The notes below the pieces were generated by a model. The model did not search any database. It saw nothing but the letters and a program-made list of their open reading frames with translations, and had not been told where the DNA came from. Shown here one piece after another: positions 7,434 to 22,923 of a DNA stretch of 25,927 nt. The position numbers and the translations under genes are program-made. Origin of the DNA: a virus; IMG/VR virus record IMGVR_UViG_3300033153_008176, positions 1-25,927 of that record, one strand, 5' to 3'. Position 1 is the stretch's first letter. Each line of letters begins with the position of its first letter.

Positions 7434-7435
7434 AG

Positions 7436-7509
7436 TGGTGGGGGCGTGATTTGAACACGCGACCTCTGGGATATGAACCCAGTGAGATACCAGACTTCTC
7501 CACCCCACT
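7436..7509 (-). tRNA. Initiator tRNA-fMet (anticodon CAU)
   Basis: A 74-nt cloverleaf: acceptor AGTGGGG/CCCCACC, D stem GAGA/TCTC, anticodon stem CTGGG/CCCAG with loop TTCATAT, variable AGGTC, T stem GCGTG/CACGC with loop TTCAAAT, discriminator A, CCA not encoded. It has the bacterial initiator marks: position 1 x 72 is unpaired (A x C; E. coli has C x A), three consecutive G:C pairs close the anticodon stem (29-31/39-41), and A11:U24 is present. Large parts match E. coli initiator tRNA (GGGGTGGAG, CTGGTA, AGGTCG, GTTCAAATC). The A1 x C72 form and T32/T38 in the anticodon loop differ from E. coli. Confidence 0.93.
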
Positions 7510-7599: not shown

Positions 7600-8061
7600 A
7601 TGGCTACAAATCAGGTTTTTGTGGGAGCACCCCCGAGACAAGGAAAGAGAAAAACAGATTCTCTAATGAAGGGTAAACTTAATGATGGAATGTGTAATAT
7701 AAATATAAATAATTATAAGGCCAAATTTACCTTCCATTCAAAGGGCAAGTCTATTAAGGGTGAGGTTGGGCTGGTTGGGTGTGAAACATCAATGTCTGCA
7801 CAAGTAGTTGGTTCTGTCAACACATCTTTTTTTATAAAACTACATTTAAATGATTTTGAAGTAGCTTTTCCTAAAATAGAAATAGGATCTCTGTTTCATG
7901 ATTGGGAAATTGAAATGAGTGTTAATGGTGTTAGGGGAAGAGTCACGATATCAACTATAGATATATGCCAAGATATGGATGCAATTCGAGAGATTGGAAC
8001 GGCAATTGTTTATCCTTATGGCGGAACTAGGTATGTAGAAATAAATGGAGAAATAAGATGA
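7600..8061 (+). CDS. Hypothetical beta-rich protein, probably leaderless
   Basis: A 153-residue protein, probably mostly beta (YKAKFTFHSKGKSIKGEVGLVG, then WEIEMSVNGVRGRVTISTIDI). No family is recognised. ATG 7600 lies 7 nt after a -10 box and has no Shine-Dalgarno sequence. It is first in the operon with the two NDP-sugar genes and overlaps the next start by ATGA. Confidence 0.65.
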   Translation: MATNQVFVGAPPRQGKRKTDSLMKGKLNDGMCNININNYKAKFTFHSKGKSIKGEVGLVGCETSMSAQVVGSVNTSFFIKLHLNDFEVAFPKIEIGSLFHDWEIEMSVNGVRGRVTISTIDICQDMDAIREIGTAIVYPYGGTRYVEINGEIR

Positions 8062-9014
8062 AAGCTCTTTTATTAGGTGGTGGTGGTTATTTTGGAACCC
8101 GTTTGGCAAGTTTTTTAACGGAATTAGGAGTTAATATAACTGTTGTTGACTTGTTTTGGTTTGGTAATCATATAGAGGAAGGAATTAAAACGATTCATGG
8201 AGACGTAAGTGATGTTACTGTGGATCAGTACGGTAGTTTTGATGTGGTTGTTTATTTGGCTGGTCTTTCAAATGATCCAATGGCTGAATTCAGCCCGAGA
8301 TTAAATTACATACACAATGCATCATATCCAATGCTCTGTGCCACCAGGGCAAGAAAGGCTTGTGTAAAAAGGTTTGTATTTGCCAGCTCGTGCTCTATAT
8401 ATGGTAGGGGCCATATGTGTGGTGAGTATGATCAAATCAAAACAGACTATCCTTACGGTATATCTAAATGGCAAGCAGAACAGGGCTTAGAGCTTCTCGA
8501 GACAGAAGACTTTAGAATAACTTTTCTGCGCAAAGGTACGTTGGGTGGTCATTCACCTAGAATGAGGTTTGACATTGCCGTTAATAGAATGTTTAAAACG
8601 GCTATGGTTGATAATAAAATTACCGTATATGACCCATCGGCATTCCGTCCACTTCTCGACATGGATGACGCCCTCAGGGCATACGCAAGTGCTATCACTG
8701 CGCCCCCCAATGTCCACGGCCCGTTCAACATCATTTCGGAGAATGTAACCATACTGGACTTGGCAATGAGGATGAAGCAGTATATGGAAGTGAAACACAT
8801 GACCACATCTATACAGATCAACAACTTACAGCAGAAAGAAGTTCGTGATTACAGTGCTAACTGGAATAATGCTATGAATGATTTGGGGTTTCAGGGTACG
8901 AGTACACTAGAATATACCATCGATGAACTGTGGCGAAATTGTGATAAGTATGACTATAACGACACAAACACTGTAAATATGGAAGTTTTCACAAGAATAG
9001 AGAGTACAATATGA
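8058..9014 (+). CDS. NAD(P)-dependent NDP-sugar epimerase/dehydratase
   Basis: A 318-residue extended short-chain dehydrogenase/reductase. GGGGYFG (residues 7-13) is the nucleotide-binding glycine motif, VVDLFWFGN the strand 2 region, GDV (48-50) an adenine contact, FASSCSIYG (108-116) the Ser motif and YGISK (133-137) the catalytic Tyr/Lys pair. RPLLDMDDALRAY matches the conserved C-terminal 'R.yvhVdDva.a' segment. The family changes NDP-hexoses by epimerisation, dehydration or reduction. It overlaps the RmlD-like gene by ATGA, so the two probably act in series on one sugar. Confidence 0.85.
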   Translation: MKALLLGGGGYFGTRLASFLTELGVNITVVDLFWFGNHIEEGIKTIHGDVSDVTVDQYGSFDVVVYLAGLSNDPMAEFSPRLNYIHNASYPMLCATRARKACVKRFVFASSCSIYGRGHMCGEYDQIKTDYPYGISKWQAEQGLELLETEDFRITFLRKGTLGGHSPRMRFDIAVNRMFKTAMVDNKITVYDPSAFRPLLDMDDALRAYASAITAPPNVHGPFNIISENVTILDLAMRMKQYMEVKHMTTSIQINNLQQKEVRDYSANWNNAMNDLGFQGTSTLEYTIDELWRNCDKYDYNDTNTVNMEVFTRIESTI

Positions 9015-9850
9015 GAATAGTTATCATTGGTTACACGGGTATGCTTGGTAGTGACCTATTTACCTATTTGACTGCCAAGCGTCAAGATGTATTTGGGCTT
9101 GATCATAGCGACATAGAGGTTGCCAGCCCAGATACCTTTGGTGTAATGGATGACTTCAAGCCAGAAATCATAATAAATACGTCTCATTGTAATTTTGAAG
9201 ACAGCGAGGCCGATCAAAAACGTGCTTTCGAGGTTAATACAGAGGGAGCAGGGAACGTAGCAAAGTATGCCCAAAAGACTGGTGCTTCAGTAATTCATTT
9301 TAGTTCCAGTTATGTTTTTGATGGTTCTAGAAATGTTTATCTCAATGAAGACGAGGCACCAGGCCCAATAAATGTATATGGAGTTTCAAAGCTTGCTGGT
9401 GAGTATATGGTAAAGAATTATTGTGAAAAGCACTTTATAATAAGGACTGGCGGGTTATATAGTAAGGTACAAACCAGAAAAGGGCCTAGCCATATTCATG
9501 ATATAATCCTTTCAGGTCAAGATAAAACTATTGATGTTTTTGGTAATTATCATTTTTCTCCTACTTGGACTTTACAGGTTTGTAAGAATTTAGTGCATCT
9601 GTTTGATTCTGGGGAGTACGGACTTTATCATATGACATCAACTGGTGACTGTAGTTATTATGATTTTGTGAGTTTGATCATAGAGGAGCTTAGGCTTCCC
9701 GCTGAGGTTGTAAAGGTTGATAATGAATTAGGGAACACACCTATGCGTAGCTTGTTACATAATAAGAACCTTGAAGTTATCGGATTAAATAAAATGGATT
9801 TTTGGGATGCAGCCTTAAAGAGATGTTTACTCAATTTTGAGGTATCATGA
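9011..9850 (+). CDS. dTDP-4-dehydrorhamnose reductase-like (RmlD family)
   Basis: A 279-residue protein of RmlD length. Features are GYTGMLG (7-13) for NAD(P)H, DHSDIEV (31-37), FKPEIIINTSHCNFEDSE (the 'kPDvViNaaAyt.VD.aE' motif), HFSSSYVFDG (96-105), and NVYGVSKLAGE with Tyr123 and Lys127 as catalytic pair. RmlD reduces dTDP-4-keto-rhamnose to dTDP-rhamnose. The canonical Ala-Ala of the third motif is replaced, so the exact sugar may differ. It is in an ATGA-coupled chain with the epimerase and the Ser/Thr-tailed protein. Confidence 0.82.
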   Translation: MRIVIIGYTGMLGSDLFTYLTAKRQDVFGLDHSDIEVASPDTFGVMDDFKPEIIINTSHCNFEDSEADQKRAFEVNTEGAGNVAKYAQKTGASVIHFSSSYVFDGSRNVYLNEDEAPGPINVYGVSKLAGEYMVKNYCEKHFIIRTGGLYSKVQTRKGPSHIHDIILSGQDKTIDVFGNYHFSPTWTLQVCKNLVHLFDSGEYGLYHMTSTGDCSYYDFVSLIIEELRLPAEVVKVDNELGNTPMRSLLHNKNLEVIGLNKMDFWDAALKRCLLNFEVS

Positions 9851-11410: not shown

Positions 11411-11600
11411 TATCCTTAATATTATGTTAAACAACGGTATGGAATATATTATGGATAATGTTCCGATGAAACAGATTGAAGACGAGAAGTTCCGTACATT
11501 AATTGCGGAGCACCTTGATCTGAGAAAGAAGATGGTACAGCATATAATTGATGGTTCAGTAAAGAAAGATGACGCTCAAATAGAATTGGATTTAAAATGA
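11394..11600 (+). CDS. Small hypothetical helical protein (68 aa)
   Basis: ATG 11394 follows GGAG with 7-nt spacing. The 68-residue product is acidic and helical (EDEKFRTLIAEHLDLRKKMVQHIIDGS). It overlaps the preceding gene by 17 nt and the formyltransferase start by ATGA. No family is recognised. Confidence 0.55.
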   Translation: MFTNNDILNIMLNNGMEYIMDNVPMKQIEDEKFRTLIAEHLDLRKKMVQHIIDGSVKKDDAQIELDLK

Positions 11601-12256
11601 TTGGGGTAATAACATACGATCATCCTCACAGGAAGACGTATGATACACTGTGTTTACTAAAGGCTAAAGGTTATCATGACGTTTCTTTGATCCTTTTGCC
11701 ATGGGAAGATAGAAAGGGATTTGTTCCACTATATAAACACAGACCGTATGGAACATTTGTTGATCCAGAATTGGTTGTGCAGAGTTTTGAATATAATGTA
11801 TATGATGCAGGTGTTTCGCCTGATTGTGATGTGTATCTTATTGCTGGTGCTGGTATACTCGGCCCCCCGTTTTCTACTAATGGAAAGACAATAAATGCTC
11901 ACCCAGGATATTTACCGAACGTTCGAGGACTTGATGCGTTAAAATGGGCAATACATGAAGGCCAACCTATTGGCGTGTCAACTCATATAATAGAGGAAAG
12001 GCCTGATGCTGGGAAGATTCTTGATCGACAATACGTTCCTATATACTCAAATGATACTTTTCATGCTCTCGCCCAAAGGCAATATGAGATGGAGGTTGAA
12101 ATGTTGGTTAGGGCCATGGAATTATTTAAGAATAAAAGTTTTGTTTATGAGACATATGAACAGGATTTGATAGATTACCCTTCTCATATGAGAATGCCGA
12201 AAGATAAAGAAATACATCTTTTAAATAAGTTCCAAAAGTTGGTGGAGAAATCGTGA
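11597..12256 (+). CDS. Formyltransferase-like protein
   Basis: A 219-residue formyltransferase-fold protein. The signature INAHPGYLPNVRG gives Asn100 and His102, and HIIEERPDAGKIL gives Asp137: the Asn-His-Asp triad of 10-formyl-THF-dependent transferases at family spacing. 'WAIHEGQPIGVSTH' also matches. The family includes GAR transformylase, methionyl-tRNA formyltransferase and sugar-amine N-formyltransferases. Methionyl-tRNA formyltransferase is normally about 310 residues with a C-terminal tRNA-binding domain, missing here. Nearby NDP-sugar genes favour a sugar substrate; the phage initiator tRNA makes a tRNA role worth testing. Confidence 0.75.
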   Translation: MIGVITYDHPHRKTYDTLCLLKAKGYHDVSLILLPWEDRKGFVPLYKHRPYGTFVDPELVVQSFEYNVYDAGVSPDCDVYLIAGAGILGPPFSTNGKTINAHPGYLPNVRGLDALKWAIHEGQPIGVSTHIIEERPDAGKILDRQYVPIYSNDTFHALAQRQYEMEVEMLVRAMELFKNKSFVYETYEQDLIDYPSHMRMPKDKEIHLLNKFQKLVEKS

Positions 12257-12411: not shown

Positions 12412-13575
12412 TTGTTTAAAATACTACATACTGCAGATAGTCATTTTCAGCAGAATAGGCTTGATGAGTGCGTTGCTAATGCTAATTTTATCAGAGAGTA
12501 TGCCCTTGAGCATGAGCCAGATATAATTATACATGCTGGCGATTTATTCCATAAAAATACTACGATTAATTCGCCAGAGTATTTGGCTGCTGTTGACTTT
12601 ATTAAAGGTTTGTCATATATGGCCCCTGTGATTATAATTAGGGGTAATCACGATCCAGATGGGTGTTTGAGTGTTCTTGATAAAATGGAAGATGTATTTA
12701 CCTTTGATGAAATGACAACGTTTAAGTACAATGATATTGTACATGTTGAGTATCCTTATATAATAGAGTTTGGATTAATTCCCTACCAAAAAACAACATC
12801 TCTCTCGGGAGATACTGTAGAGAAGGCCCGCGTATCTACCACAAAAGACATAAAGAAATTCATAACCAAGTTTGCCAAAACCCCAAAGGAAAACGACGAC
12901 AGAGATCATTTAAAAATAATAGTGGCACATATTTCTGTTGCTGGTGCAGAGCTTGCTAATAGTGAACGTATTTTAGGTAATGAGGTTATGGTTTCCCCTC
13001 AGGATCTTCTTAAAGAAAACATCAACGCAGTTATGCTTGGTCATATACATAGAAATGATCAGGATATATTAGAGGGTACGCCAGTGGCGTATAGTGGATC
13101 ACATTACAGGACAAGGTTTGATGAAACAATGGAACCAGGATTCTGTTTTTGGAGTTTCGATATGGAAGATTATAAATGGATTGGCGCAAAGAAAGAGTTT
13201 GTTAATACGCCAGCCCGTGATATGGTTAAGTGGGAACTAACAACAGAAGAGACAATGGAATATATGAGTACTGGTGAGTTTCCCTTTGAATTACTTCCCA
13301 ACGCTGATATGAAAGTTGTCTTTTCGGTACCAGAGGGAATGTCCTCCAATCTTGATAGGGATAAGTTCAAAGAAGGATTTGAGTTTGAGAAGTATAATTC
13401 TACAATTAAAGTTTCAACTATCGTGGAGCCGAAAGCAAGTGTGAGAAGCGCGGATATAGCGAAGATGAAAACAAAAACAGATATCTTTACCGAGTGGGCT
13501 GGTGTATCGAAAGTCAAGCTTACAAAGACAGTAAAGGAAAAATTTAACGAGTTAGTTGAGCAGTTTGATGATTGA
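12412..13575 (+). CDS. SbcD/Mre11-type DNA exonuclease subunit (phage gp47-like)
   Basis: A 387-residue calcineurin-like metallophosphoesterase with the full Mre11/SbcD motif series: D9-S-H11 in HTADSHF, GD (43-44) in HAGDLFH, GNHD (78-81), VAHIS (His173) and GHIH (210-213). These residues bind two Mn ions. SbcD/gp47 works with an SbcC/gp46 ATPase to process DNA ends and hairpins in recombination. No SbcC-like gene is in this window, so the partner may be elsewhere. Start is TTG 12412, directly after the previous stop, with AAAGG upstream. The C-terminal ~120 residues should form the partner-binding cap. Confidence 0.88.
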   Translation: MFKILHTADSHFQQNRLDECVANANFIREYALEHEPDIIIHAGDLFHKNTTINSPEYLAAVDFIKGLSYMAPVIIIRGNHDPDGCLSVLDKMEDVFTFDEMTTFKYNDIVHVEYPYIIEFGLIPYQKTTSLSGDTVEKARVSTTKDIKKFITKFAKTPKENDDRDHLKIIVAHISVAGAELANSERILGNEVMVSPQDLLKENINAVMLGHIHRNDQDILEGTPVAYSGSHYRTRFDETMEPGFCFWSFDMEDYKWIGAKKEFVNTPARDMVKWELTTEETMEYMSTGEFPFELLPNADMKVVFSVPEGMSSNLDRDKFKEGFEFEKYNSTIKVSTIVEPKASVRSADIAKMKTKTDIFTEWAGVSKVKLTKTVKEKFNELVEQFDD

Positions 13576-13874: not shown

Positions 13875-14346
13875 TACTGACATTAAATATTCAAAAAACT
13901 TGATTAATGACATTTTAGTTAGTATATTGGGAGTGCCCAAGAAATATCAGGGAGGAAGGTCTTTCGGAGGGTATTGGTCATTGATGAATAAGTGGATATA
14001 CAAAGACAGATATGATTTACAATATATCTACTTTGTGGTCAGCAGATTAGAAAAAAAGGAAATGACGATGAACACTGGATTTGTAGAGGGGGCTTTGCGG
14101 AGTAAGAATTGGATTGACGCCTATAATCCAGAGGAACATAAATTGCCAGCGGGTGGACAGAGGGACAAGTTACTCGAGGCTGGCCACACAATAAAAACAC
14201 TTCCAGTACACTTACTTACCAAGGAAGAGCGGAAGCAGAAAAAAGAAGAAACAGTTGACACGGTTTACGGAGTAACGGATACTCAAAGGGAGGCATTGAC
14301 AGGGCTTCTTACACAGACAGGAGGTGTATTTGGAGGTAAAAAGTGA
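13861..14346 (+). CDS. Hypothetical protein upstream of the replicative helicase
   Basis: A 161-residue protein from GTG 13861, with GGGGGA close upstream. The N-terminal ~65 residues are helical and aromatic (NLINDILVSILGVPKKYQGG, YWSLMNKWIYKDRYDLQYIYF). The C-terminal part is charged with a helix KEERKQKKEETVDT and a Gly-rich end. Its position just before a DnaB-type helicase, overlapping it, would suit a helicase loader or replication accessory, but I see no motif for that. Confidence 0.6.
   Translation: MEYNNTDIKYSKNLINDILVSILGVPKKYQGGRSFGGYWSLMNKWIYKDRYDLQYIYFVVSRLEKKEMTMNTGFVEGALRSKNWIDAYNPEEHKLPAGGQRDKLLEAGHTIKTLPVHLLTKEERKQKKEETVDTVYGVTDTQREALTGLLTQTGGVFGGKK
14319..14324 (+). promoter_or_regulatory. 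Shine-Dalgarno AGGAGG deciding the helicase start
   Basis: A full AGGAGG lies 5 nt before TTG 14330. It overlaps the upstream GTG at 14324, which therefore cannot use it. Confidence 0.75.
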
Positions 14347-15670
14347 GGTTGAAATAATCGAGCGTGGTTTTTTAGGTGCAATTTTGATGAATCCAGATAA
14401 TATGGATTTACTAATAAACGTAAATAGCGATTGGTTTACATCTAATGGAAGGGCATTAATATTCAATACTATGAAAGATATTTATAGTGCTGGTAGGACT
14501 ATTGATGCTATTACTATTCGATCAAGGATTGCTGGTTCTAAAGTTGAATATAAAAACGAAACAATTGAAGATGTATATGATATGCTTAAAGATGAGGATA
14601 TTAATCCAGCAAACTTTACATCGTATCAAGAAAGTCTAGAAGAGAAATTTTTACAGAGGACGATGTCATTGTCATTGAGAACTTCTATTTTAAAAGTACA
14701 GGATGCTGAGATAGGGTCTATCAAAGAAATAATTGACGAGGTTGAGGGTGACTTATTTAAAGTTTCTCAGAGTAGTGAGGCGTTTAATACAACAATAAGA
14801 TTGGGTAATATTGGCGTAGATTATATGAAGAAGCTTAAAACTATAAGGGAAAACGGAGTTCCGCCATTTATCGCTGAGACTGGTTTGAGAGATATAGATA
14901 AGTTGATAGGTGGATTTAGTGAGGGGGAATTTATATTACTTGCCGCTCGCCCAAGCATGGGTAAGACAGCGCTGGCTTTACAGATTGCGCGTAATAACAT
15001 TGCTAAGGGTCGTGCCGTAGGCTTTATTTCTCTTGAGATGTCTAAAGAGGCCATCTTTCTTCGCCAGCTCAGCTCTACGTCGAAGATAAATAGCATGAGG
15101 ATACGGTCTGGTCAGATAACTAAAGTTGAGTTTGATTATCTTGCGAGTGTTTGGAGTGATATAAATGCTGATCCATTTTATATAGATGATAAGGCGCCTT
15201 TAAACGAAGCCTCTTTAAGGGGGATAGCTAGGAGAATGGTTTCACTTTATGATGTCGAGTTTTTGATTGTTGACTATCTCCAGCTTATGGATTCGAGTAA
15301 GGGTAAGGAAAATAGACAACAGGAGATATCATCTATATCAAGGGCTTTTAAAAACCTATCAAAAGAACTCAGTATACCAATTATGGCCTTGTCACAGCTA
15401 TCAAGAGCAGTTGAGGCAAGGAACCCACCAAGACCAATGATGTCTGATTTGCGCGAGTCTGGCTCATTAGAGCAGGATGCAGATGCAATTATTTTTATAT
15501 ACAGACCAGAATATTATAATATAGATGCTTTTCCAGATGGCTCACCTACAACTGGGTTAGCAGAGATAATTGTGGGTAAGGCAAGAAATGCCGAAACAGG
15601 TTCTACTAATACAGTTTTTATAAAAGACACAGGAAGATTCGAAAATCTAGCTAAAGAAAACATAAACTAA
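14330..15670 (+). CDS. DnaB-type replicative DNA helicase
   Basis: A 446-residue DnaB-family helicase. The N-terminal domain (1-100) begins EVEIIERGFLGAIL, typical of DnaB. The RecA-like domain has ARPSMGKT (Walker A, near 206-213), VGFISLEMS, FLIVDYLQLM (Walker B with Asp), ALSQLSRAVEAR and MMSDLRESGSLEQDADAI, the standard DnaB C-terminal motifs. It unwinds DNA 5' to 3' as a hexameric ring at the phage fork. TTG 14330 is preferred to GTG 14324 because of AGGAGG 5 nt upstream. SSB follows 13 nt later. Confidence 0.95.
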   Translation: MEVKSEVEIIERGFLGAILMNPDNMDLLINVNSDWFTSNGRALIFNTMKDIYSAGRTIDAITIRSRIAGSKVEYKNETIEDVYDMLKDEDINPANFTSYQESLEEKFLQRTMSLSLRTSILKVQDAEIGSIKEIIDEVEGDLFKVSQSSEAFNTTIRLGNIGVDYMKKLKTIRENGVPPFIAETGLRDIDKLIGGFSEGEFILLAARPSMGKTALALQIARNNIAKGRAVGFISLEMSKEAIFLRQLSSTSKINSMRIRSGQITKVEFDYLASVWSDINADPFYIDDKAPLNEASLRGIARRMVSLYDVEFLIVDYLQLMDSSKGKENRQQEISSISRAFKNLSKELSIPIMALSQLSRAVEARNPPRPMMSDLRESGSLEQDADAIIFIYRPEYYNIDAFPDGSPTTGLAEIIVGKARNAETGSTNTVFIKDTGRFENLAKENIN

Positions 15671-15683
15671 AAGGAGTTTTACT

Positions 15684-16124
15684 ATGAATTGTAATAACGT
15701 AACGTTGGTTGGCCGCTTGGGTCAAGATCCAGAAGTCTCTGCCCTTCAAAATGGCGATACTGTGTGTAATTTTTCTATGGCCATGACGGAATACTACAAG
15801 AAAGACGATCAAAAAGATTTTAGCGAAGAGACCACATGGATTAGTATTACCGCTTGGAGAAAATTAGGTGAGCGGGCAGCAAAGTTTGCAAAGAAAGGTA
15901 CCGAAATAATGGTGCAGGGTAAGTTGCGGGAAAAGAAATGGGAAGATAAGGAAACTGGAGCGAAACGTTCTCGCGTGTATGTTCTGGCTAATAAGTTGGA
16001 TTTTGGTGAAGGTCGTATTAAGTTGGATAAAGATGCTCAACAGGCTCCGCCCGCCAATCAAGAGGCACCAGCTAATGCAGAGGCGCCCGCCAAAACGGTA
16101 GACGACGAAGACCTTCCTTTTTAG
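15684..16124 (+). CDS. ssb: Single-stranded DNA-binding protein
   Basis: A 146-residue SSB. The OB fold covers about residues 1-108, with NNVTLVGRLGQDPEV, WISITAWRKLGERAAKFAKKGTEIMVQGKL and RVYVLANKLDF. A Pro/Ala/Gln-rich linker follows, then the acidic tip DDEDLPF, which in bacteria binds replication and repair partners. AAGGAG lies 7 nt before ATG 15684. It covers ssDNA at the phage fork and probably recruits host or phage proteins through the tip. Confidence 0.96.
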   Translation: MNCNNVTLVGRLGQDPEVSALQNGDTVCNFSMAMTEYYKKDDQKDFSEETTWISITAWRKLGERAAKFAKKGTEIMVQGKLREKKWEDKETGAKRSRVYVLANKLDFGEGRIKLDKDAQQAPPANQEAPANAEAPAKTVDDEDLPF

Positions 16125-16136
16125 AAGGGTAGAATA

Positions 16137-16610
16137 ATGGAAGAGAAAAAGTGGTCTGATTTAGCACAGTACGAATATCCCGAGGCGGCTGGAATGGTCG
16201 CCTCTAAGGATATTATTAAAATGCTCCACGATCGGTTGATCACAAAGGTCAATCTATTGGCGTGGAATGCTCAATTTATAGCAGATCTTGAAGTAGAAGT
16301 TAGTGCTATTAATGCAGCTATTGGTGTTATCAAAACTAAGAAACACCATCTTGTTAATTATCATTTGACTCAGTCATTTGATAAAATTCCAAATTACTAT
16401 AAACGTAGTAAAGATTTAATGGCTTCGTGGGTTGAAGAGAACCTCATAAAAAGTGAGCTTATGACTTTCAACGATAAGGTTGAGAAATATAACGGAGAGC
16501 TCATAGAAATTCAAAGGGATCTATTTACTTATAAGTATAAATATGAGGTATTACAAAAATCAATTGATGTTGGTATATGCCTTGTTAATTCCATGAAAGA
16601 ACATGAATGA
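16137..16610 (+). CDS. Hypothetical coiled-coil protein
   Basis: A 157-residue, mostly helical protein. Long heptad-like stretches (IADLEVEVSAINAAIGVIKTKKHHL and NDKVEKYNGELIEIQRDLF) suggest a two-helix coiled coil. ATG 16137 has AAGGG about 8 nt upstream. It sits between SSB and the HD-GYP gene and overlaps the latter by 8 nt. No family is recognised. Confidence 0.65.
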   Translation: MEEKKWSDLAQYEYPEAAGMVASKDIIKMLHDRLITKVNLLAWNAQFIADLEVEVSAINAAIGVIKTKKHHLVNYHLTQSFDKIPNYYKRSKDLMASWVEENLIKSELMTFNDKVEKYNGELIEIQRDLFTYKYKYEVLQKSIDVGICLVNSMKEHE

Positions 16611-17322
16611 CGATCTGTATAATATAATGCTCGAACAGGATAGAAAAGTAAAGCAAGCAGAATTTGACACAAGAAGAACTATTTTCTTAATTGCTTTTTT
16701 GCGTGTGATAGAGGTGCATGAGCACTCTATACATACGGCAAGACATTCTGATCGTGTAGCAACTATCTCTCATTTGATTGGGAAGACAATGGGTTTACCA
16801 GATAGAGAGCTTGGTCAATTGTGGAGATGTGGGCTTTTACATGATATTGGAAAGATAGGCTTGTCTTCTGAAATTATATTGTCTGATAAAAAGCTTTCAA
16901 AGAAGGAGCGAGCTAGGGTCAAAATGCATCCTATTTATGGCGCGAAGATTCTAGAAGTTGCACCATTTTTTAAAGTAGAGTCACTTGTTACAAAACAACA
17001 TCATGAGTGTTTTGATGGTAATGGATATCCAGATGGCATTGAGGGTAAAAATATTCATTTATTTGCAAGGATAATACATGTTGTAGATGTGTATGATGCT
17101 CTTGTTGCTTTTCGTGGATATAAGGATTTATGGGATGAGGGAAGGGCGGCAAACTACATTGCCCTCCAAAGCGGGAAGATGTTTGATCCGAGGGTTGTAA
17201 AGATATTTTTAGCTGCAATGGAGACCGAAAGGTTTCAAGGTTTGTATAACGATCCAGAAGTATATTCAGTATATAAGGAGATGATGGATGATGAGAGTGC
17301 TGTTAGTGGGGGTGTCGGGTAA
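16603..17322 (+). CDS. HD-GYP domain phosphodiesterase
   Basis: A 239-residue stand-alone HD-GYP domain with every signature residue: ARHSDRV (His48), LLHDIGKIG (His80-Asp81), VKMHPIYGAKIL (His109), QHHECFDGNGYPDG (His133, His134, GYP 141-143) and VVDVYDAL (Asp162, Asp165). In bacteria this domain hydrolyses cyclic di-GMP, and some members cleave 3'3'-cGAMP. There is no receiver or sensor domain; only about 30 residues precede the catalytic fold. It overlaps the coiled-coil gene and the dNMP kinase gene, so it belongs to the replication/nucleotide operon. The substrate is inferred from the family. Confidence 0.9.
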   Translation: MNDDLYNIMLEQDRKVKQAEFDTRRTIFLIAFLRVIEVHEHSIHTARHSDRVATISHLIGKTMGLPDRELGQLWRCGLLHDIGKIGLSSEIILSDKKLSKKERARVKMHPIYGAKILEVAPFFKVESLVTKQHHECFDGNGYPDGIEGKNIHLFARIIHVVDVYDALVAFRGYKDLWDEGRAANYIALQSGKMFDPRVVKIFLAAMETERFQGLYNDPEVYSVYKEMMDDESAVSGGVG

Positions 17323-17920
17323 GGCGGGGCATGGAAAAGATACTTTGTCTGATATAATATCCAATTCTTTTGAGAAAGATGTTGACGTTCAGGAGAAGAT
17401 TTATTTTGCTGGCCAGTTAAAAAGAGCGGTTCAAGAGGTTTTTGATTTAAATTATGATGATGTGTGGGATGAAAAGGGGAAGGAAAGGCCGATTGAACAT
17501 TTGGGTGGGATTACTGGCGGTGAGGTTCTACAGAAATTCGGCACAGATGTGGCCCGTAATATATACCAAGACATATGGATATATCATTATTTAAAGGATC
17601 TTAAATCTCAGATTGGTTTTAATGATGATGTTGATAGAATGATTATCTATACTCCAGATGTAAGATTCCCAAATGAATTTAACACTGTAATGAATGCTTA
17701 TAATGGCAAGATGCCAAGGTCTGGGATTTCTTTTAAATCAATGCTTGTTCGTGTTGTAAGGCCAGGTCATAAGACAAAACGAGATCCAAATCATCCATCT
17801 GAAATAGCATTAGATAATGAGGATAGGTGGAATCATATTGTTGTTGCTAAAAATTTAGTACAACTTGAATATGCAGCAAGTCCAATAATAACAGATATTA
17901 AGGAATATTTTAGTATCTAA
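17288..17920 (+). CDS. Deoxynucleoside monophosphate kinase
   Basis: A 210-residue P-loop kinase. GKAGHGKDT (11-19) is the phosphate-binding loop in the GxxGxGKDT form typical of phage dNMP kinases (T4 gp1-like). YFAGQLKRAVQEVFDL fits the base-binding lid and FGTDVARNIYQDIWI the acceptor helix. PDVRFPNEF is the conserved 'D.RfpNE' strand. It phosphorylates dNMPs to feed phage DNA synthesis, matching the dUTPase. ATG 17288 has AAGGAG 7 nt upstream and lies 35 nt inside the HD-GYP gene. Confidence 0.85.
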   Translation: MMRVLLVGVSGKAGHGKDTLSDIISNSFEKDVDVQEKIYFAGQLKRAVQEVFDLNYDDVWDEKGKERPIEHLGGITGGEVLQKFGTDVARNIYQDIWIYHYLKDLKSQIGFNDDVDRMIIYTPDVRFPNEFNTVMNAYNGKMPRSGISFKSMLVRVVRPGHKTKRDPNHPSEIALDNEDRWNHIVVAKNLVQLEYAASPIITDIKEYFSI

Positions 17921-18518: not shown

Positions 18519-19403
18519 ATGAACTTTATAACAGAAGAGACCACAGAGGGTCTCAATCTAAATCCAGACATAGATAGCTTTGACATACCGAAAGACGATT
18601 ATCAAAAGATACTCAACGGCATGTTTATGGCTTTCCTTGGAAAAGTAAAGGATTGTGACTCAGAAGCAACAACAGAGGCCTATTGCAGAAGGGTGTTAAA
18701 ACAATGTTCTAGTTGTTTTAAGCCAGATGGTAAGATATGGAGAAAGCCACCAGGTAAAGATGCTGTTGATTGGTATGAAAAACTTTCTCTAAGACTTAAG
18801 GTTTTTGGGTATGATCTTGGTACTCAGTCTTTGATAGGTAGAAGAGAATCAAAAATCTCCTCAAAGATTAAGGATCTTAATAAAAGAGATAAGAAAGATG
18901 TTGATCCAAATGATCGAACATTTACCATGCAGGAGCAGGCAATATTTGATGAGTTTAAGGAGAAGTTCAGAAAAGATTTTCCCAGTTCTACCACTACTGC
19001 TGATGAGCTAATGATTGAAAGACTCGCTTTCTTATCTGTACTTAATGCAAGGGATATAAAGCTTGTTTCCCTCAGTAGAGATCTTACAAAAGAAATAAAA
19101 GATCTCACGGAGAGTCTTGGCGTTTCAGGTAAGCAAAGACAGGCCGTTATGGGAGATGATAATAGTGGCACCCTTGAGCAATTAAGCATGAAGTATAGAA
19201 AAACTTTAGCTGAGCATATTGAAATTGAGTCTCTTTGGAAACTTGAGGAAATGAAAAGTGTTGTCAATGCTGTAGAGCGTGGAACAACAGAAGAGTTTTT
19301 AGCTATGTCTTGGTATAAAATTTTATATGGTGGTATGATTGGTGATAAGCCAGCAACATATGATGGTATTAAAAAATTTATAAAGAAGAAATTCAATGAG
19401 TGA
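18519..19403 (+). CDS. Putative terminase small subunit
   Basis: A 294-residue protein just before, and overlapping by 8 nt, the large terminase. It is largely helical with many charged residues. It has a central basic section (SKIKDLNKRDKKD), a helical core (ADELMIERLAFLSVLNARDIKLVSLSRDLTKEIKDL) and a C-terminal YDGIKKFIKKKFNE. I do not recognise a specific family; the call rests on position and size. A small terminase would bind the packaging site and regulate the large subunit. Confidence 0.5.
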   Translation: MNFITEETTEGLNLNPDIDSFDIPKDDYQKILNGMFMAFLGKVKDCDSEATTEAYCRRVLKQCSSCFKPDGKIWRKPPGKDAVDWYEKLSLRLKVFGYDLGTQSLIGRRESKISSKIKDLNKRDKKDVDPNDRTFTMQEQAIFDEFKEKFRKDFPSSTTTADELMIERLAFLSVLNARDIKLVSLSRDLTKEIKDLTESLGVSGKQRQAVMGDDNSGTLEQLSMKYRKTLAEHIEIESLWKLEEMKSVVNAVERGTTEEFLAMSWYKILYGGMIGDKPATYDGIKKFIKKKFNE

Positions 19404-21234
19404 GGTTAAGCTATCCCGAGAAGAATTGTTTCTCATGCCTCAAATGTATCTTTTTTATAGGCACTATCCAGTATTGGCTGTGCGTGATCTATTAGGGATA
19501 ACCCTGTCAACACATCAAAGGCTGGACTTGAGGTTAAACTGGCAAACAGAAGCTAGAGACATTATAAGAATCTTTTCCCGTGGTATGTCAAAGACTTTTG
19601 GTGAAGCGATATTTGCTATTTTGTCGTGTATTTTATACCCAAGGCTGAAAGTTCTTTCTCTCGGCGCGGAGGGTTTTCGGCAGGGCAAGATGATTCTTGA
19701 AGAAGCCGAAAGTATTATTCGATGTGAGAAAGACGGTCAAGAGGATGATGGTTTTGTAAGGGCCATGGTCAATACTGGTGGTAAAAGATTGTCTGGTAGC
19801 CTTATACGCAAAGACCCTGACCTTTGGAAAATAGAATTCCTGAACCGTAGTGTTATAGGCACGGCTCCCCTTGGTGCTAAGGGTGAGGCAATTCGTGGTT
19901 TTCGTGCAAACATTACACAGGTTGATGAGCGTCGTGGATTAAAGAAAGAAATAAAAGATCGTGTTATACGTCCATTCTCTATTATAGATTACAACGTTAT
20001 AACACAAAAACAAGAGTATGAGAATAAAAATATAGATTCAGGAACTCTTCAATACGCGGAAGATGATTATACGAAAGAACTTGAAGAGTATATGCGCCTC
20101 ATAAAAGAAGGTAGCAAGAAACATCTTGTTGTTAAGTTTATCTACCCCGATGCCTTTGATGAGGCGAAAGAGGGTGAGGATTACAAGTATGATTGCAAGT
20201 ATTTCAATAAAAAGTTAAAATTTTGGAGCGTTCCTTATGGTATCAAGGTTGACGATATCGAAGGAGAACTCGACAAAATAACTACAGATATTGAATCTTG
20301 GCGTAGCGAGCACTTGTGTGTTCCAATGAGGGCAACTGGTGACTATTATTCATTTGCATTAATAAATTCTGTCGCTCAGAAGAGAGTTTTTACCGATGAG
20401 CAATATATGGAATTAACAAAAACAGATGAAGAGAATGCTACGATGTATCTTCGGCCTAAGTTAAAATGCAAAGATCCGTGTATTCTCAGTATTGATGTTG
20501 CCAGGGAACACGATATGACAGCATTCACCGTTACTAGATTGGGCCCGCTTTCCGAGGAAGAATGGAATCCAGTTATTCAGGAGGGCAAAACAAAGTTTTG
20601 TAATACTATATGGGCCTATCAAGAGAAGCACATGCAGGACACTGACACAGCAATTAAGATCTATGAGATAATGGATATGTTCGAAAATATAGTTATTGTA
20701 GCCATGGATAAGCGCGGAGGCGGATCGAGTGTCAGGGATCAGCTATATAGGGTCGTGAAGGAGGGCATTGCTCCTGACTTTGAAATACTATTTGATCCGA
20801 ATGATGATGATGAAGGTGGTATTGCACATTTGTTAAAAGATAAGCGTGGTCAGATGACAAGTTTTAATGATAGACTTCGCCTTGTATCGTATTCAGATGA
20901 GGATAATACTAAGGTTAATAGGAGTCTTAAGACTGCGATGGGTGAAGAAAGATTTTACTTTTGCGGTGGTGATGAAAAAGTTGATGAGGAAATACAGTTT
21001 GTGCGTGATTATATTAATGTTGCGCCTCGTCAGTTTAGGATGATTAAGATAAAGCCTACTAAGAACTGGCTTAACTTTACAACTCCTAATCCAGATGTGG
21101 ACTTAAAGGATATGTATTCCTCTACGGTCTATGGTTGGGGAGAGATAATGAAATTGATACATGAAAGTGACATCCCAAAACAATCGCCAGCAGCGACTAT
21201 TGCTCCAGTAATAACCGTGAAAAGAAGAGGATAA
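19396..21234 (+). CDS. terL: Terminase large subunit
   Basis: A 612-residue packaging motor. SRGMSKT (61-67) is the variant Walker A of large terminases. TQVDERRG (Asp177-Glu178) is Walker B with the catalytic Glu. The C-terminal RNase H-like nuclease has CILSIDVAREHDMTAF (Asp367, Asp373) and VIVAMDKRGGG (Asp438), with later acidic residues around PDVDLKDMY. It cuts concatemers and pumps DNA into the prohead by ATP hydrolysis. ATG 19396 overlaps the putative small subunit; the portal starts 3 nt after the stop. Confidence 0.92.
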   Translation: MSEVKLSREELFLMPQMYLFYRHYPVLAVRDLLGITLSTHQRLDLRLNWQTEARDIIRIFSRGMSKTFGEAIFAILSCILYPRLKVLSLGAEGFRQGKMILEEAESIIRCEKDGQEDDGFVRAMVNTGGKRLSGSLIRKDPDLWKIEFLNRSVIGTAPLGAKGEAIRGFRANITQVDERRGLKKEIKDRVIRPFSIIDYNVITQKQEYENKNIDSGTLQYAEDDYTKELEEYMRLIKEGSKKHLVVKFIYPDAFDEAKEGEDYKYDCKYFNKKLKFWSVPYGIKVDDIEGELDKITTDIESWRSEHLCVPMRATGDYYSFALINSVAQKRVFTDEQYMELTKTDEENATMYLRPKLKCKDPCILSIDVAREHDMTAFTVTRLGPLSEEEWNPVIQEGKTKFCNTIWAYQEKHMQDTDTAIKIYEIMDMFENIVIVAMDKRGGGSSVRDQLYRVVKEGIAPDFEILFDPNDDDEGGIAHLLKDKRGQMTSFNDRLRLVSYSDEDNTKVNRSLKTAMGEERFYFCGGDEKVDEEIQFVRDYINVAPRQFRMIKIKPTKNWLNFTTPNPDVDLKDMYSSTVYGWGEIMKLIHESDIPKQSPAATIAPVITVKRRG

Positions 21235-21237
21235 AAT

Positions 21238-22923
21238 ATGGCTAAGCAGGACTGGTCTAAGGAAGAAAGATTGCAGTTTTCAAAAGAGATATTTGATAAA
21301 GCTAAATCTATGGGCCTTGGTGTTGAGCATCATCCAGATAAATACGGTGGATTTCTTACAATAAATCCTAATGTTAAAAATAAGGAAGCAAGTCATGTTG
21401 AGTGGCAAATCAGTAAGAACGGTGATGTTCACATGGCTGGGACTCTTCCAAGCAATACAAAATCTGGATATAATTTTTTAGTTGATGCTAAGGACTACGA
21501 GGCCGATAATATAGAGCGGCGAGACAAGATTCTCCTAAGCAGGAAAGCAGTTAAGTACGAAGGCATAATAGCTACCGCGATGGAAGCACTGGTAGAAGTC
21601 CCGACCTTGGGCGGGTGGTACATTAATTGTAATGATGAGGATCTTCGGAAGCTATGTTATTATTGGGCTAAGTGGTTTAATTCGATGGGTGACAACGGTG
21701 CTATCCATTCGGACGAAACAACTGTTCAGACTGTTGGTGGAATAGAATTGTTCTCAATGCATTGTTTGTGGCAGTTATATCAAGATGGAGATTCGATCTT
21801 CACAGAGCAGTGGGAACATGTTGTGGTGCCAGAGTTAGGTGGAAAACGCTTTAATCTCCCTAGTAAATATATTGATCATGATGTAGCTGAGGCTGAGATA
21901 TCAGAATCTCTTGCCAGTATGGGTGTTGAGGTTATTAGGGTTGAAATGGATGACGATGTTAAGGCCGTTATTGATGGTGGTGGTGATTTGGATGACGATC
22001 AAAAACTTCTGCGTGACACAATCCCTGAAGAACTTTTAAAGAAAATGAAAGAGACTACTGAGACGAAGTTTATCCTTCCTTCTGAATTCACAACACATTT
22101 TACCAGAAAAAACAATGAGCGCGATGCTTGGGGTCAACCCTTTACTATTAAATGTTTTCCAGCTTTAGCTTATAAGCATAGATTGAGAAATCTTGATTTA
22201 GCTACGATAGATGGTCTCGTTCAACGTGTTTGGATTGTGAAGATTGGTATGGAGAATGAGAAACATCCTTTGGCCACACCTGATAATGATCGTGTTCTAT
22301 TAGCTGTTTCAGCATTTCAAAAACTACAGACTCAGAATTTTTTAATATGGAGTGGGCCTGATTTAACTACTGAGGAGTTTGGTTCTTCTCAGAATAACGT
22401 CTTAGGTCTTTCTGATAGATATAACAATGCTGATTATGACATATTGTCGGCCCTTGGCGTTCCCCGCGTTTTAATTGATGGTGGTGGTACTGGGGTTTCT
22501 AAAGGTATAGAGGGTTATGCTAAAACCATAGCTCAGATGGAAAGATATCAGATAATGATTGGGCGTTGGATTGAGAGTAAACTTCGCCAAATAGCCGTAG
22601 AAAATAACTTTAAAGATGAGTTCCCAACGTTTCATTGGAACTTTCTTAAGATGCGTGATCAGGATAAGGCCAAGAATATTGTTTCTAAGGTTTATGAAAA
22701 TGGTGGCATGGGTATCCGTTCATACCTCAATATGTCTGGAATGCCTGCAGATGATATAATAGAAGAGGCGATTGCAGAAGAAGAATCTGGGCTTAAAGAT
22801 CTTATGCCTACGCCCAATATTCCTTTTACAGGCCCAGGAGACAGGGAAGACATAAAAGATGATGATGGAGAAAATCCTTCTTCTAAACCCAGCGACGAAG
22901 ATTCCAATCGTGAGGGAAAATGA
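21238..22923 (+). CDS. Portal protein
   Basis: A 561-residue protein directly after the large terminase. It has the portal layout: an alpha/beta N-terminal region with GLVQRVWIVKIG, a long central region, LSALGVPRVLIDGGGTG (the 'lgvP..ll.g' crown-side motif), a stem helix (GYAKTIAQMERYQIMIGRWIESKLRQI), and GMGIRSYLNMSGMPADDIIEEA, a typical 'g..s...~l...G~d...e' end. The C-terminus is acidic and disordered. It forms the dodecameric gate at the capsid vertex. The family is recognised from these segments and gene order. It overlaps the HNH gene by ATGA. Confidence 0.85.
   Translation: MAKQDWSKEERLQFSKEIFDKAKSMGLGVEHHPDKYGGFLTINPNVKNKEASHVEWQISKNGDVHMAGTLPSNTKSGYNFLVDAKDYEADNIERRDKILLSRKAVKYEGIIATAMEALVEVPTLGGWYINCNDEDLRKLCYYWAKWFNSMGDNGAIHSDETTVQTVGGIELFSMHCLWQLYQDGDSIFTEQWEHVVVPELGGKRFNLPSKYIDHDVAEAEISESLASMGVEVIRVEMDDDVKAVIDGGGDLDDDQKLLRDTIPEELLKKMKETTETKFILPSEFTTHFTRKNNERDAWGQPFTIKCFPALAYKHRLRNLDLATIDGLVQRVWIVKIGMENEKHPLATPDNDRVLLAVSAFQKLQTQNFLIWSGPDLTTEEFGSSQNNVLGLSDRYNNADYDILSALGVPRVLIDGGGTGVSKGIEGYAKTIAQMERYQIMIGRWIESKLRQIAVENNFKDEFPTFHWNFLKMRDQDKAKNIVSKVYENGGMGIRSYLNMSGMPADDIIEEAIAEEESGLKDLMPTPNIPFTGPGDREDIKDDDGENPSSKPSDEDSNREGK

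Follow-up and report, generated by a model that had tools for sequence, protein, structure and literature searches.

In the viral DNA analysed here, an IMG/VR virus record that is likely a fragment and whose whole stretch of 25,927 bases is called the window below, a run of genes on one strand encodes, in order, an SbcD-like phosphoesterase, a 161-aa protein, a DnaB-like helicase, a single-stranded DNA-binding protein (SSB), a 157-aa helical protein, a predicted stand-alone HD-GYP phosphodiesterase, a deoxynucleoside monophosphate (dNMP) kinase and a helix-turn-helix protein, and continues through a 60-aa and a 294-aa protein to the terminase and the portal protein (Table 1). The HD-GYP gene lies 2.1 kb upstream of the terminase gene. 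An earlier note on this DNA, made from its letters alone, had assigned it to a phage replication operon, and this is supported in two ways: the DnaB, SSB, SbcD-like and dNMP kinase genes share a strand and are separated by short gaps or overlap slightly, and between 12.3 and 21.3 kb no terminator-like site was detected on the + strand. The position that the note gave the gene, between those of SSB and dNMP kinase, is right in outline, but the gene for the 157-aa protein also sits between SSB and HD-GYP. The HD-GYP reading frame overlaps that of the 157-aa protein by 8 nt and that of the dNMP kinase by 35 nt, overlaps which suggest that its translation may be coupled to both neighbours.

Table 1. 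Genes of the replication and terminase region, and motifs within the HD-GYP gene
Feature	Coordinates	Strand	Basis
SbcD-like phosphoesterase	12412..13575	+	PF00149, phrog_100
DnaB-like replicative helicase	14324..15670	+	PF03796 E=6.3e-87, phrog_19
Single-stranded DNA-binding protein (SSB)	15684..16124	+	PF00436 E=5.8e-30, phrog_44
Helical protein, unknown family, 157 aa	16137..16610	+	conserved 93/76/76/73%
HD-GYP phosphodiesterase (predicted), stand-alone, 239 aa	16603..17322	+	ATG start; Pfam, motif, fold
Divergent loop, codons of residues 37-48, E-V-H-E-H-S-I-H-T-A-R-H	16711..16746	+	alignment
HD motif and catalytic Lys, codons H80-D81-I-G-K84	16840..16854	+	sequence, five-phage alignment
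HH and GYP motif, codons H133-H134-E-C-F-D-G-N-G141-Y142-P143	16999..17031	+	sequence, alignment
Rxx(R/K) guanine-recognition motif, codons R171-G-Y-K174	17113..17124	+	alignment, literature
Deoxynucleoside monophosphate kinase	17288..17920	+	phrog_139 E=1e-24
Protein with sigma-like helix-turn-helix	17960..18352	+	by eye; no family match
Terminase large subunit	19396..21234	+	phrog_9 E=0.0005, phrog_15503; weak similarity to named-phage TerL
Portal protein	21238..22923	+	phrog_2739 E=3.5e-17

For the 157-aa helical protein, no family, PDB or fold match was obtained and no relative was detected outside the phage clade described below, within which it is nearly as conserved as the HD-GYP protein. 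Its identification as a UvsY-like recombination mediator was rejected, as PDB, PHROG and fold searches gave it no support. Elsewhere in the window, a glycosyltransferase gene (17-703) adjoins a gene for a small phosphatase (688-1176) with an HCxxGxxRS motif and a DSPc match of E=7.7e-07, below the Pfam cut-off. A nucleotide-sugar epimerase, an RmlD-like reductase and a formyltransferase-domain protein, encoded at 8058-9850 and 11597-12256, form a set of surface-sugar type in a phage, and the window also carries tRNA-Thr(TGT) (2713-2788, + strand) and tRNA-Met(CAT) (7435-7509, - strand).

Domain, fold and active site

The Pfam profile HD_5 matches the 239-aa reading frame with E=3.7e-30 and 105.4 bits (cut-off 27.2) over profile positions 11-170 of 170, which covers the domain in full and places the protein in the HD-GYP family; a PHROG search with the same protein returned no match. 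The earlier note had delimited a stand-alone HD-GYP gene here, and its ends are exact, on the + strand: the product is a stand-alone HD-GYP domain without a sensor or receiver domain. In the PDB, phmmer matched V-cGAP3 of Vibrio cholerae (5z7c, 3.4e-31), PmGH of Persephonella marina (4mcw, 7.7e-28) and PA4781 (4r8z, 5.4e-17). The protein consists of a long N-terminal helix (residues 2-40), a divergent loop up to His48, a core of about residues 44-205 and a conserved C-terminal tail (206-226), and its AlphaFold model, built with a 71-sequence alignment, has a mean pLDDT of 88.7. All of the top 15 Foldseek matches to this model are HD-GYPs. The nearest solved fold is the c-di-GMP-bound HD-GYP domain of DvhD (9rbz, 1.3e-10; TMq 0.69-0.75), followed by PmGH (4mcw, 1.5e-10) and 4r8z. 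DvhD is about 24% identical and its domain belongs to a PAS/HD-GYP protein, whereas the phage domain stands alone. PmGH, a c-di-GMP phosphodiesterase, has in common with the phage protein the fold, the seven ligands, the Lys, the GYP motif and Arg-x-x-Lys, but it carries an N-terminal regulatory domain, has Glu185 (which binds a third iron) and Asp183 at the positions of phage His44 and Ser42, and lacks the two-residue insertion. V-cGAP3, a 3'3'-cGAMP phosphodiesterase, shares the HD-GYP core and, unlike the phage protein, has an extra N-terminal region, with a Tyr where PmGH has Glu185.

One of the outcomes that the earlier note had named as counting against its reading, a clear match to an HD nucleotidase group, did not appear. 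The nucleotidase folds YqeK, YpgQ and SAMHD1 were found by Foldseek only at E>=0.1, against 1e-10 for HD-GYPs, and searches against HD nucleotidase families (YfbR, dNTPase, YqeK, YpgQ) gave no family match, so an HD nucleotidase identity was rejected. The protein also has an HD fold rather than the 2H phosphoesterase fold of Acb1-type anti-CBASS nucleases. The best reading of its sequence is as a cyclic-dinucleotide phosphodiesterase; its sequence, motifs, fold and purifying selection all speak for the family and for the likely chemistry, and on these grounds the cyclic-dinucleotide hydrolysis proposed in the earlier note stands as the likely chemistry.

Residues were mapped onto PmGH (Bellini et al., PMC4159591), in which H189 corresponds to phage H48, H221 to H80, D222 to D81, K225 to K84, H250 to H109, H276/H277 to H133/H134, D305 to D162, D308 to D165, GYP to residues 141-143, R314 to R171 and K317 to K174. 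The seven family-wide metal ligands (H48, H80, D81, H109, H133, H134 and D162) are invariant in all five phage orthologues, as are catalytic Lys84, Asp165, G141-Y142-P143 and Arg171-x-x-Lys174. The GYP motif is thus intact, as the earlier note had stated, and residues 133-143 (HHECFDGNGYP) agree with the family pattern HHExxDGxGYP. The note's further statement that all metal ligands are present holds for the seven family-wide ones, but not for the eighth of the trinuclear subfamily, PmGH Glu185, which is replaced by His44. The Rxx(R/K) motif, R171-G-Y-K174 in all five phages, is of the c-di-GMP type; it has been described as guanine-recognising and as favouring c-di-GMP (PMC10882959).

The active site departs from PmGH mainly in the loop of residues 37-48, which is two residues longer, has Ser42 at the Asp183 position and His44 at the Glu185 position, and ends in His48, the first of the metal ligands; the five phages do not differ at residues 37-45. 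In PmGH, Glu185 is an eighth ligand that permits a third metal (iron) in the trinuclear subfamily, and an alanine mutant of Asp183 is inactive (PMC4159591). With His44 in all five phages, the protein has neither the Glu/Asp of the trinuclear E/D-T-G subfamily nor the residue of the Y/F subfamily, proposed to be dinuclear, and by its sequence fits neither published HD-GYP subfamily. Among the matches listed, His occupies this position in only 2 of 80 sampled bacterial domains, and an Asp at the Asp183 spacing is kept in 74 of 80 bacterial domains against 14 of 30 scorable stand-alone domains from virus collections, counts that are not independent because they come partly from one clade with a shifted loop. 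The loop is modelled at lower confidence (pLDDT about 73); Glu40 might stand in for Asp183 there, the loop being two residues longer. Because Ser42 and His44 occupy the Asp183 and Glu185 positions in a loop that is shifted by two residues and less certainly modelled, catalytic activity is not assured.

These replacements affect positions on which PmGH activity depends or which are important for it, and would fit a weak or dead HD-GYP that senses cyclic dinucleotides or forms a scaffold with a coupled helical partner, for which the overlapping and nearly as conserved 157-aa protein is a candidate. Inactive HD-GYPs do exist, e.g., Bd1817 (PMC8177086). However, degenerate members such as gp79 of Bacillus phage G lose ligands, whereas the seven core ligands, Lys84 and Asp165 are all invariant here, and we consider loss of activity improbable. 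The altered loop could instead mean another substrate. The enzyme might hydrolyse pGpG, dinucleotides or another nucleotide set free during infection and feed the adjacent dNMP kinase, as its nucleotide and replication enzyme neighbours, the HAD-like genes inserted beside it in two relatives (L003 and L007) and the preference of PA4781 for pGpG (PMC8177086) would allow. Such a salvage or turnover role is unlikely, given that the full HD-GYP signature and the guanine motif are retained and that no nucleotidase family or close nucleotidase fold was matched.

Conservation in a clade of tailed phages

Four other IMG/VR contigs (L002, L003, L005 and L007) carry an HD-GYP orthologue at the matching position, with 91/81/81/75% identity; together with the window they form a small sample of five, and the clade is represented here by contigs of at most 38 kb. 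The gene is present in all five at a fixed position, whereas the HNH genes on its upstream side and the HAD-like gene on its downstream side vary in presence. By eye, the latter is a HAD-like phosphatase gene that lies between HD-GYP and dNMP kinase in two relatives only (L003, 6696-7265; L007, 6152-6712). When 16 proteins were ranked by conservation in the three more distant relatives, HD-GYP came second to TerL (97/86/87/81%) and its identity exceeded those of DnaB, portal, SSB and dNMP kinase. Values of dN for HD-GYP are 0.05-0.20 with dS high or saturated, and the only pair without synonymous saturation gives dN/dS = 0.059. Four syntenic orthologues, and low dN beside high or saturated dS, show that the reading frame is not a chance match; HD-GYP is a core gene of this clade of tailed phages, under strong purifying selection.

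Counter-defence genes are usually accessory, variable and fast-changing, whereas the HD-GYP gene, present in all five members of this small sample, is second in conservation. We therefore doubt that the enzyme serves counter-defence by removing 3'3'-cGAMP-like CBASS alarm signals or type III CRISPR cyclic oligonucleotides, since it is a core gene with a fixed position and near-terminase conservation. A role of this kind, against SMODS and CRISPR signals, was predicted by Iyer et al. (2021, PMC7824862) for HD-GYPs of jumbo phages. Those enzymes (e.g., QDB70412.1) are likewise phage-encoded and proposed to degrade cyclic nucleotides; they are set apart from the present ones, by published description, in that they belong to jumbo phages and were proposed for counter-defence. 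The best PDB sequence match, V-cGAP3, is a 3'3'-cGAMP phosphodiesterase that also has Rxx(R/K), which makes 3'3'-cGAMP a possible substrate, and expression with replication would be timely. However, Rxx(R/K) is described as favouring c-di-GMP (PMC10882959), no defence-linked neighbours were identified, and PADLOC matches were generic only (the HD stretch of Cas3, nuclease domains). Removal of CBASS signals, as raised in the earlier note, is thus possible but rather unlikely; nothing at the locus points to it specifically, and a routine role in host signalling agrees better with the core status and extreme conservation of the gene.

Stand-alone HD-GYPs elsewhere

Among 50,697 records, no verified named phage matched at E<=1e-5. 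The tblastn matches at this threshold were 28 faecal-sample contigs labelled 'Bacteriophage sp.' without annotation, five of which were examined and found marked UNVERIFIED, and 'Microcystis phage' MaAM05 (MW495066.1, L010), which carries rplK, rplA, secE, nusG and a secretin and is probably a bacterial sequence filed as phage. MaAM05 was rejected, and all of these records were left out, as phage evidence; six of the tblastn-matched loci remain in the virus-collection set below. Bacillus phage G gp79, the only named-phage BFVD match with E<1e-3, was rejected as a functional relative as it is degenerate, with neither the HH nor the GYP motif.

A broad motif scan gave at least 80 loci in viral contigs and at least 80 in bacterial genomes. 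Among the matches listed, HD-GYP proteins of no more than 275 aa, counted as stand-alone, account for 32 of the 82 virus-collection loci and for 7 of the 80 bacterial ones (Fisher p=6e-6). The 82 loci all lie outside the window's clade and include six from the annotated phage set; two of the seven bacterial loci are cut by contig ends. Virus collections include bacterial contamination, and the phage context of the stand-alone loci was therefore checked: a terminase or another hallmark of phages is present in about half of the stand-alone viral records. In at least eight (L048, L053, L055, L070, L072, L079, L084 and L088), the HD-GYP and terminase genes share a strand, with HD-GYP 0.7-3.5 kb upstream, a recurrent arrangement that involves terminases of several unrelated types and for which no published description was found. 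The adjacent terminases belong to several PHROG groups (phrog_38, 15, 2 and 5909), and in L095 and L099, with a phrog_9 terminase, the HD-GYP gene lies on the terminase's other side. One viral stand-alone clade (L048, L049, L052, L053, L055-L058, L070 and L079) has a loop of the form R[DE]x[YFW][ND]HH in place of the usual DxxTxxH.

In the phylogeny that the earlier note had proposed, the five phage proteins form one clade (support 100) on a long stem, separated from the closest of the sampled bacterial domains by about 1.8 changes per site; the window's protein groups with the HD-GYPs of L031 and L064, two long viral contigs of 189 kb and 162 kb, with a support of only 82. Among the matches listed, REC-GAF-HD-GYP proteins of Desulfobacterota score best in pairwise searches (about 42%). 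That of Desulfobacter vibrioformis (L104), among the most similar bacterial domains sampled with about 42% identity over 175 residues, differs from the phage protein in its 511 aa, its receiver and GAF-like regions (read from sequence) and its canonical D-x-Y-T loop. Assignment of a Desulfobacterota host from these matches was rejected, about 40% identity being too weak for it. In the large tree, at least four changes on starred branches suggest multiple independent origins of the phage stand-alone genes, a reading that was not adopted, as a test of the phage-validated subset did not reject a single old origin in phages (p-AU 0.46). It is possible, though doubtful, that stand-alone HD-GYPs are a widespread phage-adapted class, placed beside terminase or replication genes in many unrelated phages, with a reworked N-terminal active-site loop (a two-residue insertion with Ser/His here; loss of the catalytic Asp by other means elsewhere); they would then act on host cyclic dinucleotides through a modified metal site or with a changed substrate range.

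A proposed effect on host cyclic-dinucleotide signalling during infection

We put the probability at about 50% that the HD-GYP of this clade is produced while the phage replicates and acts constitutively on cyclic dinucleotides of the host, c-di-GMP being the likeliest. What we infer of its catalysis, substrate, timing and physiological effect is as follows. Its synthesis probably accompanies that of SSB and dNMP kinase at the time of replication; among the cyclic dinucleotides of the host, its most likely substrate is c-di-GMP, which it would cleave to pGpG, perhaps along with other guanine-containing 3'3'-dinucleotides. The phage enzyme lacks the REC, GAF or PAS domains that gate its bacterial relatives, and should therefore act constitutively; ungated, it would collapse the host c-di-GMP pool in every infection, and the lower c-di-GMP would alter decisions of the infected cell on its surface, motility and growth. 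Such a reset of host signalling is probably a routine part of infection and not an optional anti-defence trick.

The idea of a phage HD-GYP directed against cyclic-nucleotide signals is already published for jumbo phages (PMC7824862), and no experimental study of any phage HD-GYP was found in the open-access full-text literature. New here are a phage clade with a core HD-GYP, the recurrence of stand-alone HD-GYPs beside several terminase types, and the reworked loop. If the enzyme is active, changing the cyclic-dinucleotide signals of the host would be, for some tailed phages, a built-in step of replication rather than optional counter-defence. The enzyme would then offer a simple unregulated enzyme for testing the effects of c-di-GMP on phage development, and the viral stand-alone HD-GYPs with odd loops would be a ready set in which to look for new cyclic-nucleotide specificities.
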